Position numbers and translations under genes: made by a program | NCBI RefSeq assembly: GCF_024296685.1 | Contig: NZ_CP100763.1 | Coordinates: 1,550,001-1,614,000 of the forward strand | DNA length: 64,000 bases | From: Natrinema marinum | Lineage (GTDB): Archaea > Halobacteriota > Halobacteria > Halobacteriales > Natrialbaceae | Direction of reading: 5' to 3' | The notes under the pieces: generated by a model | Seen by the model: only the letters and a program-made list of their open reading frames with translations | The model's database searches: none | Told to the model about the DNA's origin: nothing | Shown here: positions 48,559 through 61,645 of the stretch, piece by piece | Numbering within the stretch: the first letter of the stretch is position 1 | Layout of the letters: every line of letters begins with the position of its first letter

Positions 48559-48744
48559 ATGACCACGACTGATACCGTTCACGATCGAATCGGAACCGCA
48601 CGCGACGACCTCACGACGGGCCAGTTGCTGGCCGTCTTCGCTTTCGCCGCGGCGCTTTCATTCACGCTACTGTTCTTGCAGGAACCGCTGGCCCACGACG
48701 CCATGCACAACTTCCGGCACGCGGCCGGCGTCGCCTGTCACTGA
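48559..48744 (+). CDS. cbtB: cobalt transporter subunit CbtB
   Basis: 61 aa. One transmembrane helix (QLLAVFAFAAALSFTLLFLQ) followed by the histidine motif EPLAHDAMHNFRHAAGVACH, which is the CbtB signature thought to bind Co2+. CbtB and CbtA together form a predicted cobalt uptake system for cobalamin synthesis. Its TGA overlaps the cbtA ATG (TGATG), so both are co-translated. Confidence 0.92.
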   Translation: MTTTDTVHDRIGTARDDLTTGQLLAVFAFAAALSFTLLFLQEPLAHDAMHNFRHAAGVACH

Positions 48745-49496
48745 TGGTCGTCGACTACCTCGAGCGGGGCGTCCTCGCCGGATCGATCGCGGGGCTGGCC
48801 TACGGAGCCTACATGGCGCTCGTCGCGAACCCGCTGATCGGCTATATGGAGGGGGTCGCAGAGGGCGGTGTCGGCGACCACGCACACGAGCACGCCCACG
48901 CCGCCGTCGACGGAGGCCCCGTCGTGACCGAGGCGACGACCGCCGCGGTCAGCGTCGGCGGCGGCGTCCTCTGGGGCATCCTGCTCGGCGGCGTCTTCGC
49001 GCTCGCGTTCTACTTCCTCGAGCCGGCACTGCCCGGCCGCGGGAAGGCGAAGGCTTACGTGCTGGCCGGCGCGGGCTTTTTCACCGTCTCAGTTGCGCCG
49101 TGGCTCGTTCTCCCGCCGACGACGCCGGGGGCCGAGCAGGCGTATACCCCGACGCTGCGGATCGCGATCTACGTCGGGATGATGGCCGTCGGCGCGGTCG
49201 TCGCCGCGGCGTCGATCTACGGCTACGACCGCGTCTCGGCCCGGAGTCGCCCGCTCGGAGCCGTTGCGGCCGCGGTTCCGATCGTCGCGCTCGCGGCCCT
49301 CACCGCGCTCGGGGCGCCGACGATCGTCGCGGCCGGCGCGGTGCCGGCCGACCTCGCAACGGCCTTCCGGGGTCTGACCGTCCTGAGTCAGGGTGCGCTC
49401 TGGGCGCTCGTCGCCGGCTGCTTCGGCTGGTTCCAGACGCAAGCCGGCGTTCGATCGGCCGCCGAACGGCGCGACGAACTGCTGACCAGTCCATGA
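48744..49496 (+). CDS. cbtA: cobalt transporter subunit CbtA
   Basis: 250 aa with about six helices. The N-terminal LERGVLAGSIAGLAYGAYMA is followed by a loop with a histidine cluster DHAHEHAHAA (residues about 47-56) likely to bind metal, then GGGVLWGILLGGVFALAFYF and further helices to GALWALVAGCFGWFQTQAG. This is the CbtA family, found with CbtB and regulated with cobalamin genes in many prokaryotes. The next gene starts inside its stop (ATGA, 49493-49496). Confidence 0.9.
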   Translation: MVVDYLERGVLAGSIAGLAYGAYMALVANPLIGYMEGVAEGGVGDHAHEHAHAAVDGGPVVTEATTAAVSVGGGVLWGILLGGVFALAFYFLEPALPGRGKAKAYVLAGAGFFTVSVAPWLVLPPTTPGAEQAYTPTLRIAIYVGMMAVGAVVAAASIYGYDRVSARSRPLGAVAAAVPIVALAALTALGAPTIVAAGAVPADLATAFRGLTVLSQGALWALVAGCFGWFQTQAGVRSAAERRDELLTSP

Positions 49497-49880: not shown

Positions 49881-51515
49881 ATGCTCACGTGGCCAGACGA
49901 GACCATCTACGAGGGAATCGCGGCGGTCGCGGCGACCGACCCGGACCGGCGGGCCGTCGTCTTCGAGGGAACGACGTGGACCTACGACGATCTGCTCGCC
50001 GAAACGCGGGCACTCGCCCGCGGACTCGCCGATCTCGGCGTCTCCGAGGGCGACGTGATCGCGGTCTGGCTCGGTAACCGTCCCGAGTGGATCGCCTGCC
50101 AACTCGCGGCCTCCGCTCTCGGCGCAGCGATGGTCGCCGTCAACACCCGCTACCGGACCCACGAACTCGAGTACATGCTCGAAGACTCCGGCGCGAGCGT
50201 CCTCGTTACCGAGGACGAACTGCTCGACCGGGACTACCACGAGATGCTCGCGACCGCGGTCCCCGAGGTCGCGGCGCAGTCGCCAGACGCGTTCGACCCC
50301 GACTCGATCCCCTCGCTCGAGGCGGTCGTGAGCCTCGAGCCCTCCGACGAACTGTCGGCGCTACGGACCTACGACGACGTATGCGAGACGGGGCGAGCGC
50401 GAGACCGGGGAGAACTCGAGCCCGCGACCGACTCGGAGGCCCCGGTGGCGATCTTCTACACCAGCGGCACGACGAGCGATCCGAAGGGGTGTCTGCAGTC
50501 GAGTCGGTCGCTGCTGAACCACTCGGCGCACGTCGCCGATCACCTTGGCGTGACCGACGAGGACGTGGCCGTCGCGACGCTGCCGTTCTGCGGCATCTGG
50601 GGCTACAATACCCTCTTCAGCGTCCTCGCGACGGGCGCAACGCTCGTGACGCAGACGCACTTCGATCCCGGCGAGACGATCCGGCTGGTCGACGACCACG
50701 ACGCGACCTACCTCACCGGATTGGGCGTGATGTTCGAGCGGGTGCTCGAGCACGAGACCTTCGATCCGTCGCGCGTCGAGACGGTCGAGACGGGCGTCGT
50801 CGGCTTCATCAGCAAGGGGTTCGACGCGGCCCTGTTCGAGCGCATCGAATCGACGGTCGGCTTTCCGGTGGTCCAGCCCTACGGGCTCTCGGAGGCCAAC
50901 AGCCAGATCTTCGTCGGCGATCCCGACGACCCCGCAGCGCGGCGCAAGCGTGTCGGCGGGCCGCCGATCCACCCGGACATCGAGGCGAAGATCGTCGACC
51001 CCGAGAGCCGCGAGGCGCTGCCGGCCGGCGAGGAGGGCGAACTCGCAATCCGGGGCTATCTGCTCGCCGATGGCTACCTCGGCAAGCCAGCGGCGACCGC
51101 GGCGGCCTTCGACGAGTCGGGGTGGTTCTACACCGGCGACCTCGCCGAGATGGACGAGGACGGCTACGTCTACTACCGCTCGCGGCTCGACGACGCCCTG
51201 CGAGTTCGGGGGTTTCTCGTCGCGCCCCGCGAGATCCAGTCGGCGGTCGAGGACCACCCCGATGTCCGCTCGTGCGAGGTCGTCGGCGCGCCCCACCCGC
51301 GCCACGGTGAGGTAGCGGTCGCGTTCGTCGTCCCCGCGAACGACGAGGTGAACGCGGGGGAACTCGAGGAGTTCCTCGATTCCCGCGTGGCCGACTACAA
51401 GGTCCCCGAAGCGTTCGAGTTCGTCGACGAGTTCCCGACGACGGAGGGACCGAACGGCGAAAAAGTCCAGAAAACGGTGCTTCGCGAGCGAGTCGCAGAC
51501 CGGTTCGACGCGTGA
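49881..51515 (+). CDS. AMP-dependent acyl-CoA synthetase
   Basis: 544 aa ANL-superfamily adenylase. P-loop A3 is AIFYTSGTTSDPKGC, A5 is VVQPYGLSEANSQ, A7 is GWFYTGDLAEMDEDGYVYY, and the C-domain has RSRLDDALRVRGFLVAP (hinge, unusual Asp-Asp-Ala in place of the common Lys-Asp/Glu) and a final Lys in GEKVQKTVLRER. It activates a carboxylic acid to its CoA thioester. It stands first among the CoA-ester genes; acid chain length is not predictable. Confidence 0.88.
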   Translation: MLTWPDETIYEGIAAVAATDPDRRAVVFEGTTWTYDDLLAETRALARGLADLGVSEGDVIAVWLGNRPEWIACQLAASALGAAMVAVNTRYRTHELEYMLEDSGASVLVTEDELLDRDYHEMLATAVPEVAAQSPDAFDPDSIPSLEAVVSLEPSDELSALRTYDDVCETGRARDRGELEPATDSEAPVAIFYTSGTTSDPKGCLQSSRSLLNHSAHVADHLGVTDEDVAVATLPFCGIWGYNTLFSVLATGATLVTQTHFDPGETIRLVDDHDATYLTGLGVMFERVLEHETFDPSRVETVETGVVGFISKGFDAALFERIESTVGFPVVQPYGLSEANSQIFVGDPDDPAARRKRVGGPPIHPDIEAKIVDPESREALPAGEEGELAIRGYLLADGYLGKPAATAAAFDESGWFYTGDLAEMDEDGYVYYRSRLDDALRVRGFLVAPREIQSAVEDHPDVRSCEVVGAPHPRHGEVAVAFVVPANDEVNAGELEEFLDSRVADYKVPEAFEFVDEFPTTEGPNGEKVQKTVLRERVADRFDA

Positions 51516-51774
51516 GGATTGCGTGTCGTCACGGCGATCCGCTGACGATGAGGGCCCCGTCTCGTCCGTCGATCCGATCCTCGTTCGTCGGCTCCGAAAC
51601 CGATACAGCACCACCTCAGTACGATTATTTATATTATTATATGTTTGAATGACCGCCCACGTACAAATGAACGTAGAGAAGTTTCTGTGCCGATTTTATC
51701 GGTTTCTTCGATCGGGACCTGTGGTATACATCATGACATAACGCTTTTCTCCCGACCTGAGAGAGGATCTGCTA
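51516..51774. promoter_or_regulatory. promoter region of the acyl-CoA dehydrogenase gene
   Basis: 259 bases, AT-rich in two places (51622-51645 and 51725-51745). It contains a palindrome ccgat-ttt-atcgg at 51690-51702 and a TATA-like catgacataacg about 33 bp before the ATG at 51775. No gene is seen. Confidence 0.5.
51690..51702. promoter_or_regulatory. 13-bp palindrome upstream of the acyl-CoA dehydrogenase
   Basis: ccgat, ttt, atcgg: perfect 5-bp arms, 73-85 bp upstream of the start codon and upstream of the TATA-like element. Possible regulator site. Confidence 0.35.
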
Positions 51775-52980
51775 ATGGCACGACTCCTACGGGATGCGGT
51801 CTCGCTCACCGAGAGCCAACGGCTCGTTCGCTCGAGCATCCGCGACATCTGCTCTGACTTCGATCACGAGTACTGGCGTCGGCGAGCCGAGGAGGGAGAG
51901 TACCCCCGCGAGTTCGTCGACGCGTTGACCGACCACGGCTGGATGGGGATCCTACTGCCCGAGGAGTACGGCGGTGCCGGAATGGGTACCCAAGAAACCG
52001 TCGTCATGATGGAGGAGATTGCCGCCAACGGCGGCGGGTTCAGCGCCGCACAGGCGGTCCACGGCGGCGTCTACAACTCCGTCCCCATCGTCGAGTACGC
52101 CAGCGAGGAGATCAAACGGGACCTGCTCCCGAAGGTCGCCGACGGCGAGGCGTCGATCCAGGCCTTTGGCTTGACCGAGCCCAACGCGGGCTCGAACTCG
52201 CCGGCGATCGAGACGCGCGCAGAACGAGACGGAGACGAGTACGTCGTCAACGGCCAGAAGATCTGGACCTCCCGCGTCGACGTCTCCGACTACATCGTCC
52301 TCGTCGCGCGTACGACCCCGCTCGAGGAAGTCGACAAACGGACCCGCGGTATCTCGATGTTCCTCGTCGACTTGGAGGACGCGATGGACCAGGGGGCACT
52401 CGAGATGGAGGCGATCCCCAAGTCTGCCAGCGACTTCGTCCACTCCTTCGAGCTCTGGTTCGATGACCTGCGCGTCCCCGCGGAGAACCTGATCGGCGTC
52501 GAGGGCAACGGCTTCTATCAGGTGCTAGATGGCCTCAACGAGGAACGGCTCGTCATCGCCGCCGAGTGTCTCGGCCTCGGGCGGCTGGCGCTCGAGCGCG
52601 CGGTCCAATACGCCACCGACCGGGAGGTGTTCGACCGCCCGATCGGGAAGAACCAGGCGATCCAGCACCCGCTGGCGGAGGCCTACGCGCGGCTGCAGGC
52701 GGCCAAGCAGCTGACCTACAACGCGGCCGACCGGGCGGCCTCCGACGAGGACGTGGACCTGGGCGCGTACGCGAACGCGGCGAAGTTCCTCGCGGCGGAC
52801 GCGGCCTACGAGGCGGCCGACGCGGCGGTCCAGACCCACGGCGGCTTCGGCATCGCGACGGAGTACGACGTCGAGCGCTACTTCCGCGAGGCCCGCCTGA
52901 CGCGGCTGGTGCCGATCACCCAGCAACTCGCCTTGAACTACCTCGGCGAGAACGTACTCGGCCTGCCGCGTTCGTACTGA
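51775..52980 (+). CDS. acyl-CoA dehydrogenase
   Basis: 401 aa. FAD/substrate marks: MGILLPEEYGGAGMGTQETV, ASIQAFGLTEPNAGSNSPAI, YVVNGQKIWTSRVDVSDYIV and QTHGGFGIATEYDVERYFRE. The C-terminal segment where many family members have the catalytic Glu (YEGT) reads RLVPITQQ here. A Glu257 in DGLNEERLVIAAECLG sits at the position of the catalytic Glu of isovaleryl- and long-chain dehydrogenases, so this enzyme is probably of that subtype. Substrate chain type not certain. A MaoC gene follows after 43 bases. Confidence 0.88.
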   Translation: MARLLRDAVSLTESQRLVRSSIRDICSDFDHEYWRRRAEEGEYPREFVDALTDHGWMGILLPEEYGGAGMGTQETVVMMEEIAANGGGFSAAQAVHGGVYNSVPIVEYASEEIKRDLLPKVADGEASIQAFGLTEPNAGSNSPAIETRAERDGDEYVVNGQKIWTSRVDVSDYIVLVARTTPLEEVDKRTRGISMFLVDLEDAMDQGALEMEAIPKSASDFVHSFELWFDDLRVPAENLIGVEGNGFYQVLDGLNEERLVIAAECLGLGRLALERAVQYATDREVFDRPIGKNQAIQHPLAEAYARLQAAKQLTYNAADRAASDEDVDLGAYANAAKFLAADAAYEAADAAVQTHGGFGIATEYDVERYFREARLTRLVPITQQLALNYLGENVLGLPRSY

Positions 52981-53023
52981 TCGACGAGTACCCCGCGACC
53001 CGACCAATCTACGATTCACGCCA

Positions 53024-53602
53024 ATGACGGACGACACTGACGACACCGAAACGGAGGAAGCGACGGAGAAGCGACTGGTAGAGGGCTGGCACGGCCGCTA
53101 CTACGAGGACTTCGACGTGGGCGACATCTACAAACACCCCTTCGGTCGCACGGTCACCGAGACGGACAACGTCTGGATGACCAACGTGACGATGAACCTC
53201 AACCCGATGCACTTCAACGAGGCCTACGCCGAGGAGACGGAGTTCGGCGAGCGGCTGGTCGACGGCACCTTCGTTATCGCGCTGGCGGTCGGGATGAGCG
53301 TCATCGACATCTCGGTCAACGCGACGGCGAATCTCGGCTACGACGACATCCGCCACCACAACCCGGTCTACCACGGCGACACCATCTTCGCCGAGAGCGA
53401 GGTCCTGAGCAAGCGGGAACTCGAGTCCCGCGATCACGTCGGCATCGTCGAGACCGAACTGCGGGCGTACAACCAGGACGGCGACCTCGTGCTCAGCTTA
53501 GAGCGCACGCCAATGGTGTTGAAACGCGAGTACGCCGAGCCCTCCGCGGCGAAGCCGCCGGGCTGGCTCGAGGGAATCGGGACGCAGCCGGAGGACCTCT
53601 AG
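53024..53602 (+). CDS. MaoC-family enoyl-CoA hydratase
   Basis: 192 aa hotdog-fold hydratase. The family pattern is RYYEDFDVGDIYKHPFGRTV, the catalytic Asp/His-type TMNLNPMHFNEAYAEETEFG, ERLVDGTFVIALAVGMSVID and DDIRHHNPVYHGDTIFAESE. The subtype resembles hydratases of mesaconyl-, itaconyl- or methylmalyl-CoA. Single-domain length (the double-domain mesaconyl-CoA hydratase is near 340-350 aa). Two bases separate its stop from the CoA-transferase start. Confidence 0.87.
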   Translation: MTDDTDDTETEEATEKRLVEGWHGRYYEDFDVGDIYKHPFGRTVTETDNVWMTNVTMNLNPMHFNEAYAEETEFGERLVDGTFVIALAVGMSVIDISVNATANLGYDDIRHHNPVYHGDTIFAESEVLSKRELESRDHVGIVETELRAYNQDGDLVLSLERTPMVLKREYAEPSAAKPPGWLEGIGTQPEDL

Positions 53603-53604
53603 CC

Positions 53605-54783
53605 GTGTTCGCGCTCGACGATATCACGGTCGTGAGCCTCGAGAGCGGAGTCAGCGCGCCGCTGTGTACCCGCATGCTGGGTGACTTCGGCGCCGAGGTA
53701 ATCAAGGTCGAGCGGCCGGACGTGGGCGACGTCAACCGCCACTGGGACTCGGTGGTGTACGGCGACTCGTCGGCCCACGCCTGGGTCGACCGGAACAAGC
53801 TGAGCGTCGAGTTGAACTTGAAAAGCGAGGACGGGACCGCGATCTTCCACGAACTCGCCGCGGAGGCCGACGTGATCGTCCAAAACTACTCGCCGGGCGT
53901 CGTCGAACGCCTCGGCGTGGGCTACGACGATATTGCCGAGAGCAACGAGGACGTCATTTACCTCAACGTCTCGGGCTACGGTCGGAGCGGGCCCTACAGC
54001 GATCGCAAGGCCTACGACATGGTCATGCAGGGCGAGACCGGCCTCATTCTGATGAACGGCTCGCCGGACGCCCCCGCGAAGATTCCCCTGAGCGTCTGTG
54101 ACATCAACGCTGCGACCTACGGCACGATCGCCACGCTACTCGCGCTGTTCCACCGCGAGCGCACCGGCGAGGGGCAGGAACTCGACGTGACGATGTTCGG
54201 CGGGATGCTCTCGTGGCTCGGCTACTTCCCCCACAAGTACTGGCACAACGACGAGCAGCCGGAACGCATCGGGATGCGCCACCACCTGCTGACCCCCTAC
54301 GGCCCTCACGAGACGGCCGACGACCAGTACGTCAACTTCGCCATCCTGAGCGAAGCCCACTGGGAACTGCTCTGCGAGGCCGTCCTCGAGCGCCCCGACC
54401 TGCTCGCGGACGAGCGCTTCGCGGACAACGAGAGCCGGGTTGAGAACCGCGACACGCTCGAGCCGCTGCTCGAGGACCTGATCGCCGAGCGGCCGCGTGA
54501 CTACTGGGCCGAGCGGCTGGCCGAAGCGGGCATCCCGTGGGGCGACGTGAACCAGCTAGACGAAGTGCTCGACCACCCCCAGACCGAGCATCTCGACCTC
54601 GTGAAGGAACTCGAGACCGAGGACGGCCCGGTGCCGTACGTCGACAATCCGATCGACACCGACGCGCTCGAGTTCGCGGCCGAGCCGATGCCGGATCTCG
54701 GCGAACACACCGACGAGGTGCTCGACGCGCTCGGCTACTCGAGCGAGGAGATCGACGCGCTCCGGGAGAACGATGTGGTCTGA
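53605..54783 (+). CDS. CaiB/BaiF family III CoA-transferase
   Basis: 392 aa starting with GTG at 53605. Signature elements are VVSLESGVSAPLCTRMLGDF, AEVIKVERPDVGDVNRHWDS, WVDRNKLSVELNLKSEDG, and the region KIPLSVCDINAATYGTIATL whose Asp is the expected acyl-anhydride nucleophile. C-terminal VPYVDNPIDTDALEFAAEPM is typical. Family members move CoA between acids such as succinate and mesaconate, itaconate or formate/oxalate. Its place next to MaoC and PrpD genes suggests a C4-C6 dicarboxylate substrate. Confidence 0.88.
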   Translation: MFALDDITVVSLESGVSAPLCTRMLGDFGAEVIKVERPDVGDVNRHWDSVVYGDSSAHAWVDRNKLSVELNLKSEDGTAIFHELAAEADVIVQNYSPGVVERLGVGYDDIAESNEDVIYLNVSGYGRSGPYSDRKAYDMVMQGETGLILMNGSPDAPAKIPLSVCDINAATYGTIATLLALFHRERTGEGQELDVTMFGGMLSWLGYFPHKYWHNDEQPERIGMRHHLLTPYGPHETADDQYVNFAILSEAHWELLCEAVLERPDLLADERFADNESRVENRDTLEPLLEDLIAERPRDYWAERLAEAGIPWGDVNQLDEVLDHPQTEHLDLVKELETEDGPVPYVDNPIDTDALEFAAEPMPDLGEHTDEVLDALGYSSEEIDALRENDVV

Positions 54784-54885
54784 GCGTCGGCGGGCCGCTC
54801 GATCGGCCCGAACGGAATTCGAGAGAGCGTCGGTCGCCGTGACCGGCGGGAACGGTTATCCGCGTGGGCCTCGGAGGGAGCCGCG

Positions 54886-56250
54886 ATGACCGGCTCCCCC
54901 TCGAGCGAAGTGACCGAAGACCTTGCCTCGTTCGTCGCCGCGCTCACGGCCGACGACGTTCCCGACGGGGCGCTTCGCACCGCCGAACGGGCGGTTCTCG
55001 ATACCGTCGGCGTGACGCTCGCCGGCGCGGACGCCGAGGCGGGCGGGATCGCGACGGCTGCCGTGACCGCGGACGGCGATGCCGGCGAGACGACGGTTCT
55101 CGGCCGCGACGAGCGACTGCCCCTGTCCGACGCCGTCTTCGCGAACGCGACCGCAGGCCACGCGCTGGACTTCGACGACGTGGCACTGGCGGCGATGGAC
55201 GGCCATCCGAGCGTGCCGATGGTCGCCCCCCTGCTGGCCGTCGGCGAGCGCGAAGGGGCGTCCGGACTGGAGCTACTGACGGCCTTCGTCGCCGGCTTCG
55301 AGGCGCAGAACTACCTCTCGAGGCCGATCAGCCCCGGCCACTACGAAGGGGGCTGGCACGCCACCTCGACGATCGGCCTCTTCGGTGCCGCGGCGGCCGT
55401 CGCCAATCTGCTCGATCTCTCGACCGAGCGCACCGCGAACGCGCTCTCGATTGCCGCCTCGATGCCGGCCGGGCTCAAGCGCAACTTCGGGACGACGACC
55501 AAACCGATCCACGCGGGCCAGGCCGCCCGTTCGGGAACGACCACAGCCCTGCTCGCGGCCGAAGGCGCGACGGCCAACTCGGCGGCGATCGACGGTCACC
55601 GCGGCTTCTTCGACCTCTACCGCGGTGATGGCGAATCCGACCTCGAGGCGCTGCCCGATCTCGGCGAGCGGTGGGCGATCCGCGAGGACGGCATCGACGT
55701 GAAGAAGTATCCCTGCTGTTACTACACCCACGCCGCCATCTACGCGGCGATCGGACTCACAGAGGACCGCGCCCTCGAGCCAGCGGAGATCGACACGGTG
55801 CGTGTGACGGCATCGCAGGGCGCGGCCGACGCGTTAGCTCACGACGACCCCGAGACGGGCCTCGAGGCGAAGTTCTCGATGCAGTACCTGATCGGGAGCG
55901 CGATCGCCCGTCGCTCGGTTGGCCTGTCCGCGTTCGAGGAGGACACCATCGACGAGCCGGCGGTCCAGACCGTCCGCGAGCGCGTCTCGCTGGTCGTCGA
56001 CGACGACCTGCCGTACGACTCGAACGCCGCGCGCGTCGCGGTGGCGACCCGCGACGGAAAAACACACGAGCGCACGCAGGAACGACCGCCGGGGACGCAC
56101 GACGATCCCCTTTCCGTCGAGGAACTCCACGAGAAGTTCCGGATGTGCGCCGAGTACGCGCCGGGGCCAATCGCGGTCGACGACGCGCTCGCGGCGCTCG
56201 ACGATCTGCGGTCGGTCGACGACGTGGGGACCCTCCTCGAGTCGCTCTGA
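54886..56250 (+). CDS. MmgE/PrpD family protein
   Basis: 454 aa. The family marks are RTAERAVLDTVGVTLAGADA near the N-terminus, NATAGHALDFDDVALAAMDG, HPSVPMVAPLLAVGEREGAS, GGWHATSTIGLFGAAAAVAN and KRNFGTTTKPIHAGQAARSG. The two-domain fold includes 2-methylcitrate dehydratase and cis-aconitate decarboxylase. KKYPCCYYTHAAIYAAIGL carries the conserved Tyr/Cys region. The reaction here is unknown; a hydratase or decarboxylase for a tricarboxylate or methyl-branched acid fits best. It ends the cassette. Confidence 0.85.
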   Translation: MTGSPSSEVTEDLASFVAALTADDVPDGALRTAERAVLDTVGVTLAGADAEAGGIATAAVTADGDAGETTVLGRDERLPLSDAVFANATAGHALDFDDVALAAMDGHPSVPMVAPLLAVGEREGASGLELLTAFVAGFEAQNYLSRPISPGHYEGGWHATSTIGLFGAAAAVANLLDLSTERTANALSIAASMPAGLKRNFGTTTKPIHAGQAARSGTTTALLAAEGATANSAAIDGHRGFFDLYRGDGESDLEALPDLGERWAIREDGIDVKKYPCCYYTHAAIYAAIGLTEDRALEPAEIDTVRVTASQGAADALAHDDPETGLEAKFSMQYLIGSAIARRSVGLSAFEEDTIDEPAVQTVRERVSLVVDDDLPYDSNAARVAVATRDGKTHERTQERPPGTHDDPLSVEELHEKFRMCAEYAPGPIAVDDALAALDDLRSVDDVGTLLESL

Positions 56251-56327: not shown

Positions 56328-57398
56328 ATGACGCTGTACTCGCGGGTTCGCCCCCTCGCGTTCAAGTTGCCGGCCGAGACGGCCCACGACCTCGGCAAAC
56401 GGACGCTCCGGGCGGCCCAGTCGACGCGGCCGACGCGGGCGGCGCTCTCCTACGCGTACCGGTACGACCACCCGGCGCTCGAGGTCGACCTGTTCGACGC
56501 GACGTTTCCGAACCCGGTCGGCGTCGCCGCCGGCTTCGACAAGAACGCCGAAGTGACCCACGCGCTGTCGGCGCTTGGCTTCGGCTTCGTCGAGATCGGC
56601 ACCGTCACGCCCTACCCGCAGGAAGGTAACGACCGTCCACGCCTCTTTCGTCTGCTCGAGGACGAGGCGATGATCAACCGGATGGGCTTCAACGGACAGG
56701 GGATGGAACGGGTCAAATCTCGGCTCGAGGGCGACGGAACACCGAATATCCCTCTCGGCGTGAACGTCGGCAAGATGAACTCCTCGAGCGAGCGCGAGGC
56801 GATCGAGGATTACCGGCGCGTCTTCGATCGGCTCTCGCCCTTTTCCGACTACGTCGTGGTCAACGTCTCCTGTCCGAACACGCCCGACGAGTTCGACGAG
56901 GCTTCGCCCGACCACCTCCGAGCGATCTTCGAGACGCTCGAGGCCGAAAACGATCGGAACGTGCCGATCCTCGTCAAGATCGGCCCCGACGAGCCCGACG
57001 AGGCGATCTTCGACCTCGTCGACATCGTCCGCGAGTTCGACCTCGACGGCATCGTCGCGACCAACACCTCGACGAGCCGCAAGGGCCTCGCGTCGTCCCG
57101 CCGCGAGGAGTGGGGCGGACTCAGCGGGAAGCCGATCGCCGATCGATCGACCGAAGTCATTCGCACGCTCGCCGAGTACACGGACGGCGAGTTACCGATC
57201 ATCGGCGTCGGCGGCGTCGACTCCGCGACGAGCGCCTACGAGAAGATCAGGGCGGGCGCGTCGCTCGTCCAGTTGTACACCGGGTTCGTCTACGGAGGCC
57301 CGTCGACGGCGAAGCGGATCAATCGGGGGCTGGTGAAACTGCTCGAGCGCGACGGCTTTTCGTCGATCGAGGACGCGGTCGGCGCTGACCTCGAATAG
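56328..57398 (+). CDS. pyrD: dihydroorotate dehydrogenase, class 2-like
   Basis: 356 aa from the ATG at 56328. It oxidises dihydroorotate to orotate using FMN and quinone. The N-terminal helical extension (ETAHDLGKRTLRAAQ) and FGFVEIGTVTPYPQEGNDRP mark class 2 enzymes that touch the membrane. NPVGVAAGFDKNAE and GVGGVDSATSAYEKI bind FMN. The catalytic-base position is Cys182 in VNVSCPNTPDE, where bacterial class 2 enzymes have Ser (NISSPNT). Cys there is a class 1 trait, so this is a mixed form. Confidence 0.92.
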   Translation: MTLYSRVRPLAFKLPAETAHDLGKRTLRAAQSTRPTRAALSYAYRYDHPALEVDLFDATFPNPVGVAAGFDKNAEVTHALSALGFGFVEIGTVTPYPQEGNDRPRLFRLLEDEAMINRMGFNGQGMERVKSRLEGDGTPNIPLGVNVGKMNSSSEREAIEDYRRVFDRLSPFSDYVVVNVSCPNTPDEFDEASPDHLRAIFETLEAENDRNVPILVKIGPDEPDEAIFDLVDIVREFDLDGIVATNTSTSRKGLASSRREEWGGLSGKPIADRSTEVIRTLAEYTDGELPIIGVGGVDSATSAYEKIRAGASLVQLYTGFVYGGPSTAKRINRGLVKLLERDGFSSIEDAVGADLE

Positions 57399-61144: not shown

Positions 61145-61148
61145 ATGA
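61113..61148 (+). CDS. 11-codon frame overlapping the membrane HTH start
   Basis: MNHVATAPKQP, with its TGA (61146-61148) inside an ATGA overlap with the regulator's ATG (61145). A TATA-like ttataaaaaa (61071-61080) lies upstream. It may be a translated leader coupled to the regulator. Confidence 0.3.
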   Translation: MNHVATAPKQP

Positions 61149-61645
61149 GCATCCGACGACGTGTCTCAACGGTCACCGAGACGTCCAGTCCATCGACCAG
61201 TGGCGCGGCCGCCGCTTCGATCGTCGCGGCTCCGCGGCCGGAGCTCGTCTCGGAACTCGTCCGGCCGCTCCAACTGGACGGCAGTGCACACCTGGCGGCG
61301 CTCGCCGGCATGATCGCGCTAGCGCTTCTCGGCGGGGTACTCGTCGCCCGCAACCGATACGAGGATCCGTCGGCGCGGGCCGACGAGACGGAACCGACCC
61401 GCGAGGAGTTCGTCACCGATCAAGAGCTGGTCCGCCAACTACTCGAGGACAACGGCGGACGAATGAAGCAATCGAAGATCGTCGACTCCGTCGACTGGTC
61501 GAAAGCCAAGGTCAGTCGGCTGCTCGCCGATCTCGAGGACGACGGCCAGATCACGAAACTCAGGCTCGGGCGGGAGAACCTGGTCTGTCTGCCGGGACAC
61601 GAGCCGACGGCGTCGAAGTCGCCCGAACAGCCGACAGACGATTAG
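61145..61645 (+). CDS. membrane-anchored winged-helix regulator
   Basis: 166 aa. A non-cytoplasmic N-terminus of about 45 residues is followed by one helix (AHLAALAGMIALALLGGVLV, near 48-68) and a cytoplasmic winged helix: TDQELVRQLLEDNGGRMKQS, KIVDSVDWSKAKVSRLLADL and a wing GQITKLRLGRENLVCLPG. Membrane-bound one-component regulators of this MarR-like type occur in haloarchaea beside exported proteins. It may control the surface protein gene that follows. Start at the ATG at 61145. Confidence 0.75.
   Translation: MSIRRRVSTVTETSSPSTSGAAAASIVAAPRPELVSELVRPLQLDGSAHLAALAGMIALALLGGVLVARNRYEDPSARADETEPTREEFVTDQELVRQLLEDNGGRMKQSKIVDSVDWSKAKVSRLLADLEDDGQITKLRLGRENLVCLPGHEPTASKSPEQPTDD

Follow-up and report, generated by a model that had tools for sequence, protein, structure and literature searches.

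A probable haloarchaeal counterpart of the bacterial cluster for itaconate and methylsuccinate breakdown in Natrinema marinum

A four-gene core at the locus

The genome of the haloarchaeon Natrinema marinum is a single contig (C1, 3,766,003 bases), of which we analysed a stretch of 64,000 nucleotides, here called the window, at positions 1550001–1614000. Five consecutive plus-strand reading frames at 49881–56250 of the window encode an acyl-coenzyme A (CoA) ligase, an acyl-CoA dehydrogenase, a MaoC-fold hydratase, a CaiB/BaiF family III CoA-transferase and an MmgE/PrpD protein (Table 1). Reading frames and profile matches confirm the arrangement, coordinates and families reported in a first-pass annotation of this DNA, including the 2 bases between the MaoC stop and the GTG that opens the CaiB/BaiF frame, and the GC content by codon position and acidic bias of the five frames are consistent with genuine haloarchaeal genes. 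Because the ligase is set apart from the dehydrogenase gene by ~260 bases, which include an AT-rich stretch, and is optional in relatives, the core of the locus is the remaining four genes (51775–56250). These would be transcribed together, and the AT-rich run could possibly be their own promoter. Our comparisons suggest that the core is probably a haloarchaeal version of the bacterial cluster for itaconate and methylsuccinate degradation.

Table 1 Features at the locus, in window coordinates.
Feature	Coordinates	Strand	Basis or remark
AMP (adenosine monophosphate)-forming acyl-CoA ligase	49881-51515	+	Pfam AMP-binding, 252 bits; optional neighbour
Intergenic stretch	51516-51774	+	AT-rich TATA-like run near 51618-51650, read from the sequence
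Acyl-CoA dehydrogenase	51775-52980	+	Mcd orthologue
MaoC-fold hydratase, RipB/Ich-like, predicted mesaconyl-C4-CoA/itaconyl-CoA hydratase	53024-53602	+	RipB/Ich is best model
CaiB/BaiF family III CoA-transferase, predicted succinyl-CoA:methylsuccinate/itaconate, Ict-like	53605-54783	+	Reciprocal best hit with Ict
MmgE/PrpD protein, predicted dicarboxylate isomerase/epimerase	54886-56250	+	Msi match; methylsuccinate the likeliest substrate
Sixth frame, named pyrD	~56329-57398	+	Matches an annotated dihydroorotate dehydrogenase at the same position in a relative

Relatives of the core enzymes

The bacterial itaconate/methylsuccinate cluster (Ich, Mcd, Msi, Ict, Ccl), described in 2023–2025, has been characterised biochemically in Pseudomonas aeruginosa and Cupriavidus necator (PMC12290011), and genetic evidence for it has also been presented (PMC9875883). 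Like this cluster, the window combines a dehydrogenase, a family III CoA-transferase, an MmgE/PrpD protein and a hydratase. The first-pass annotation had proposed an undescribed route for branched C5–C7 dicarboxylates; the comparisons below support CoA-dependent breakdown of branched C5 dicarboxylates, whereas the claim of novelty falls, since the same enzyme combination is already characterised in the two bacteria (PMC12290011, PMC9875883). We found the cluster of P. aeruginosa PA7 through a published primer sequence and compared it with the N. marinum genome in both directions.

PA7 Mcd retrieved the window dehydrogenase with 395 bits and 49% identity (runner-up 181 bits), and the window dehydrogenase retrieved Mcd in return (393 bits; runner-up 198), making the two reciprocal best hits. 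In a tree of 31 rows, for which 8 of the 13 other matches in the same genome and 8 of the 23 other P. aeruginosa matches were sampled, the window protein and its haloarchaeal relatives cluster with Mcd and with Thermus, Rubrobacter and Novosphingobium sequences in a clade of 13 rows, supported at 100/100 on a long stem and separate from all of these sampled dehydrogenases. Together, these results argue strongly that the window protein is an orthologue of methylsuccinyl-C4-CoA dehydrogenase (Mcd) and would catalyse the dehydrogenase step. As this nearest characterised dehydrogenase uses methylsuccinyl-CoA, a C5 compound, the earlier substrate range of C5–C7 goes beyond the evidence.

The best NCBIfam model for the MaoC protein is RipB/Ich (NF038241, 174 bits), and a RipB-annotated protein from Paraburkholderia caribensis, searched against the N. 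marinum genome, placed the window MaoC first (159 bits, 50% identity; runner-up 97). In the hydratase motif, TMNLNPMH, Asn (Asn-x4-His) occupies the catalytic-Asp column. In standard (R)-hydratases the Asp of this motif is catalytic. The Asn is common to the P. caribensis protein, Mch and the Thermus and Rubrobacter proteins, whereas Asp occupies this position in three further MaoC proteins that the genome encodes; the MaoC tree, in which 2 of 18 inner branches were starred, was too poorly resolved to serve for more than the motif column. These features point to a hydratase of the RipB type rather than the Pseudomonas type, and the shared Asn argues, though not decisively, against an enzyme limited to straight-chain enoyl-CoA, a limitation that the first-pass annotation had considered.

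Both proteins bear on a different interpretation, which we regard as unlikely: a beta-oxidation-like module for some other branched or dicarboxylic acyl-CoA, in which the ligase or CoA-transferase would activate the substrate, the dehydrogenase and MaoC would oxidise and hydrate it, a thiolase would end the sequence, and MmgE/PrpD would epimerise a different alkyl-substituted dicarboxylate. The window does have an upstream acyl-CoA ligase (405 bits with PRK06164, its best NCBIfam model, where the cut-off is 677), whose orthologue cluster recurs at 5 of the 60 other loci in our initial set, and the position of MmgE/PrpD outside the Msi clade and a cluster without a lyase would also fit such a module. 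Against it stand the dehydrogenase inside the fully supported Mcd clade, a RipB-like MaoC with Asn rather than the Asp form, a window with no thiolase between CaiB and MmgE, and a window cluster in which we identified no 3-hydroxyacyl-CoA dehydrogenase. We likewise consider unlikely a leucine (R)-route as in Mycobacterium tuberculosis (PMC6689899), the dehydrogenase being in the Mcd clade.

For the CoA-transferase, PA7 Ict found the window CaiB at 276 bits and 39% identity (runner-up 247), and the reverse search returned Ict at 273 bits (runner-up 208), again a reciprocal best hit. The putative catalytic Asp and GxxH are aligned, pointing to an Ict-like enzyme that would carry out the CoA-transferase step. 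The same superfamilies as CaiB and MaoC include Mct and Mch of the haloarchaeal methylaspartate cycle, which act on C5 dicarboxyl-CoA compounds, and Mct accepts methylsuccinate in vitro (PMC5592240).

The locus might on these grounds be read as a duplicate of that cycle's mesaconate branch, CaiB and MaoC serving as an extra Mct and Mch on the way to beta-methylmalyl-CoA and thence to propionyl-CoA and glyoxylate. CaiB does match the Mct model (218 bits) and MaoC the Mch model (92 bits), and the genome does have the cycle: glutamate mutase E, methylaspartate ammonia-lyase, Mct, Mch and malyl/beta-methylmalyl-CoA lyase are encoded at C1:~365–373 kb, all scoring over curated cut-offs, so that the absence of methylaspartate-cycle genes noted in the first-pass annotation is true of the window and not of the genome. 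The scores of CaiB and MaoC, however, lie far under the cut-offs of 700 and 560, which the separate genes at C1:365–373 kb exceed with 729 and 641. The cycle has no role for the dehydrogenase or for MmgE, and P. aeruginosa Ict matches the window CaiB well ahead of the genome's own Mct (163 bits). We therefore rejected duplication of the cycle, on the curated cut-offs and the true genes elsewhere, as highly improbable.

At an E-value of 1e-5, the window MmgE/PrpD protein is the sole match of PA7 Msi in the genome (33% identity), and the reverse search likewise gave one match. Six of the seven Msi active-site residues are kept (His88, His102, Tyr148, His152, Lys202 and Lys266, P. aeruginosa numbering), and the seventh, Glu91, is replaced by Asp; the six are present in all but one of 37 haloarchaeal MmgE/PrpD rows, which represent 37 of the 38 neighbourhoods with this gene described below, one having been dropped by a length filter. 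The closest solved relative is iminodisuccinate epimerase (PDB 2hp0, 252 bits). Like this enzyme, the window protein has the Tyr and His pair described as two-base epimerase residues (PMC12290011); unlike it, it sits in a cluster without an iminodisuccinate context, at 35% identity and on a long branch. In our trees, the first built without 10 rows (near-duplicates for the most part) and the second without 15 (long-branch rows among them), the window protein groups with iminodisuccinate epimerase (96/84), outside the Msi clade. These data hint at an isomerase step for the MmgE/PrpD protein. Two other roles were rejected, namely 2-methylcitrate dehydratase (PrpD; 48 bits against a cut-off of 575) and cis-aconitate decarboxylase (at most 153 bits for entries so named, against 252 for the epimerase).

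A second haloarchaeal MmgE/PrpD lineage occurs in similar clusters (places L049, L060, L066, L074 and L135) and is sister to bacterial Msi (99/98). One genus, g32, has the first lineage in cluster places L055 and L057 and the second in L060 and L063.

Conservation of the neighbourhood and the lyase step

MaoC matches occur in 260 of 292 genomes at 1e-20; at least 73% identity is reached in 89 genomes, the next level being 54%. We counted neighbours at 95 places in 38 genera, comprising the window and 94 listed places with MaoC of at least 73% identity. Near MaoC, an Mcd-type dehydrogenase is found at 48 places, MmgE/PrpD at 38 and a CoA-transferase of any kind at 67, along with a TRAP permease (25), a TAXI binding protein (23) and IclR (17). 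Dehydrogenase, MmgE/PrpD and CoA-transferase all lie within 6.5 kb of MaoC at 33 of the 95 places, in 20 genera, a grouping that therefore exceeds chance. MmgE goes with the dehydrogenase, which is present at 33 of the 38 MmgE places against 15 of the 57 others (Fisher p 5e-9, kinship ignored). The same association holds for whole genomes: 60 of the 63 genomes with the dehydrogenase at 1e-125 also have MaoC, compared with 29 of the remaining 229 (p 4e-36, kinship again ignored). At this line, at least one genome, G055, is scored as lacking the dehydrogenase although a 62% relative lies beside its MaoC, and the three dehydrogenase genomes without a counted MaoC have one of 47–54% identity nearby on the same contig.

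The genes are thus not scattered in most relatives, a possibility that the first-pass annotation had raised, yet the cluster is variable and, because only 6 of the 16 genomes of the window's genus have the dehydrogenase, accessory. Haloarchaeal plasmids often bear MaoC (26 records at at least 74% identity), and a Natronorubrum bangense plasmid carries the cluster; on annotated haloarchaeal plasmids, MmgE, the dehydrogenase, MaoC and a class I CoA-transferase stand alongside TRAP genes. Two bacterial plasmids form a bridge: in Rubrobacter indicoceani, a 52% MaoC, an MmgE 62% identical to P. aeruginosa Msi and an Mcd-clade dehydrogenase lie side by side, and in Thermus thermophilus a 57% MaoC accompanies an Mcd-clade dehydrogenase, CaiB, CitE, a fumarase-like pair and a TAXI TRAP protein.

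The CoA-transferase next to MaoC varies. A class I enzyme, which scores as a YgfH/ScpC-type succinate CoA-transferase, is found at 53 of the 95 places, always on the same strand, and CaiB at 16, with at least 70% identity at 10 of those; at none of the 95 places do CaiB of at least 70% identity and the class I enzyme occur together. The pairing of MaoC with a class I CoA-transferase in other haloarchaea may recall the Yersinia-type rip cluster (RipA, RipB, RipC), and among the curated models it is the RipB-type hydratase that the window MaoC matches best. The window differs from the rip cluster in its family III transferase, its additional dehydrogenase and MmgE, and the lack of an adjacent RipC. 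At 20 of the 95 places MaoC and a CoA-transferase occur without the Mcd-type dehydrogenase, and MmgE too is missing from 16 of these; such places resemble the itaconate clusters of three genes reported in PMC12290011. It could be argued from these that the window handles only itaconate, as a detoxification, and that the dehydrogenase and MmgE serve another purpose; the joint presence of dehydrogenase, MmgE and CoA-transferase in the window and at 32 more places makes this very improbable.

A cleavage enzyme would be needed to complete the bacterial route. The search for a CitE-like lyase suggested by the first-pass annotation did find one in the genome, unlinked to the cluster. Among four HpcH/HpaI-type places, one is the methylaspartate-cycle lyase and two are aldolase-like; the fourth, at C1:1151060–1151938, has RipC/Ccl as its best model (199 bits, cut-off 375) and 41% identity to P. 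aeruginosa Ccl, adjoins glutamate dehydrogenase and lies near a second MaoC, an arrangement seen at L095:5048–10216. This gene might supply the lyase step. As a marker of the cluster, CitE was ruled out by its presence in 252 of the 292 genomes. On a Halomarina plasmid (L103:10531–12901), MaoC is followed by genes for a TcuA-like flavoprotein and a member of the isocitrate lyase/phosphoenolpyruvate mutase family, a possible alternative lyase.

Two further genes of the window may be mentioned. A CbtA cobalt-transporter-like gene (48744–49496) lies directly upstream of the ligase and stays near the cluster in several relatives. Itaconyl-CoA poisons B12 mutases; any connection between CbtA, this toxicity and the glutamate mutase gene of the genome is speculation. 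A small gene at 61145–61645, with a DUF7343/IclR-like helix-turn-helix domain, is a candidate regulator.

A probable hybrid variant of a known route

Several observations weigh against equating the core with the bacterial cluster. Three of its proteins fall below the curated cut-offs of their matching NCBIfam models: MaoC scores 174 bits against 340 for RipB/Ich, CaiB 218 against 700 for Mct, and MmgE is also well below. There is no blastp match at 1e-3 between the window MaoC and the PA7 itaconyl-CoA hydratase (PA0878 type). MmgE/PrpD scores 248 bits (35% identity) with iminodisuccinate epimerase against 157 bits (32%) with Msi, and forcing its group together with Msi costs 32.7 log units and is weakly rejected in an approximately unbiased test (p-AU 0.0385) whose groups were picked after the first MmgE tree had been seen. 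At 25 of the 95 places, MaoC has no dehydrogenase, MmgE or CoA-transferase nearby. A thiolase, which the route does not need, lies near MaoC at six (L036, L038, L039, L041, L044 and L047); two of these, L038 and L044, lack the dehydrogenase, CaiB and MmgE, as the beta-oxidation-like module would have it. Lastly, profile searches identified no CitE lyase among the window genes, CitE lies within 6.5 kb of MaoC at just 2 of the 95 places, the candidate CitE is too widespread to be specific to the cluster, and 5 of the 89 MaoC genomes lack it at an E-value of 1e-40.

Even so, we judge it likely, with reservations on the individual steps, that the four-gene core is the haloarchaeal counterpart of the itaconate/methylsuccinate cluster. 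In the pathway that we propose, MmgE/PrpD might interconvert (S)- and (R)-methylsuccinate, and CaiB/BaiF would charge methylsuccinate or itaconate with CoA taken from succinyl-CoA. The dehydrogenase would then oxidise methylsuccinyl-C4-CoA to mesaconyl-C4-CoA, passing electrons to electron-transfer flavoprotein, and MaoC would hydrate mesaconyl-C4-CoA, or isomerise and hydrate itaconyl-CoA, to (S)-citramalyl-CoA, which the unlinked CitE-like lyase might cleave to acetyl-CoA and pyruvate. The substrates and the direction of these reactions are those that we infer. Support is good for the dehydrogenase step, moderate for the CoA-transferase and hydratase steps, and weak for the isomerase and lyase steps.

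Relative to the cluster of C. necator and P. aeruginosa, the window has a RipB-type rather than a PA0878-type hydratase, an MmgE/PrpD protein from another clade, a lyase outside the cluster and an archaeal host. The predicted activities are best read as a known route in a new haloarchaeal form, a hybrid built from different enzyme lineages. Our literature search, which left most subscription journals outside its reach, found no account of such a cluster in haloarchaea. The main text of PMC12290011 has haloarchaea only in its reference list; that paper places 96.2% of methylsuccinate isomerases in Pseudomonadota, with Msi membership set by the authors' own hidden Markov model at 550 bits. A Haloferax gene is called itaconyl-CoA hydratase in a transcriptome paper, as a use of the name alone (PMC10694973).

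A broader proposal, to which we give somewhat less than an even chance, is that haloarchaea built methylsuccinate/itaconate catabolism from an Mcd-type dehydrogenase and non-orthologous parts at three other steps, namely a hydratase of the RipB type, a CoA-transferase from one of two classes and an MmgE/PrpD protein from one of two lineages. Because the other MmgE/PrpD lineage is sister to Msi and that of the window is not, the latter would mean that an isomerase for methylsuccinate (or a related alkylsuccinate) arose a second time. If this is true, methylsuccinate would be a genuine substrate in hypersaline habitats, contrary to the view of 2017 that its role in haloarchaeal metabolism is 'doubtful' (PMC5592240). 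The route is not new; rather, a known bacterial route would be extended to haloarchaea, with a specific and assayable function proposed for a cluster found in about 20–25 sampled haloarchaeal genera, a substrate class for an uncharacterised MmgE/PrpD lineage, and a bearing on the published doubt over haloarchaeal methylsuccinate metabolism.

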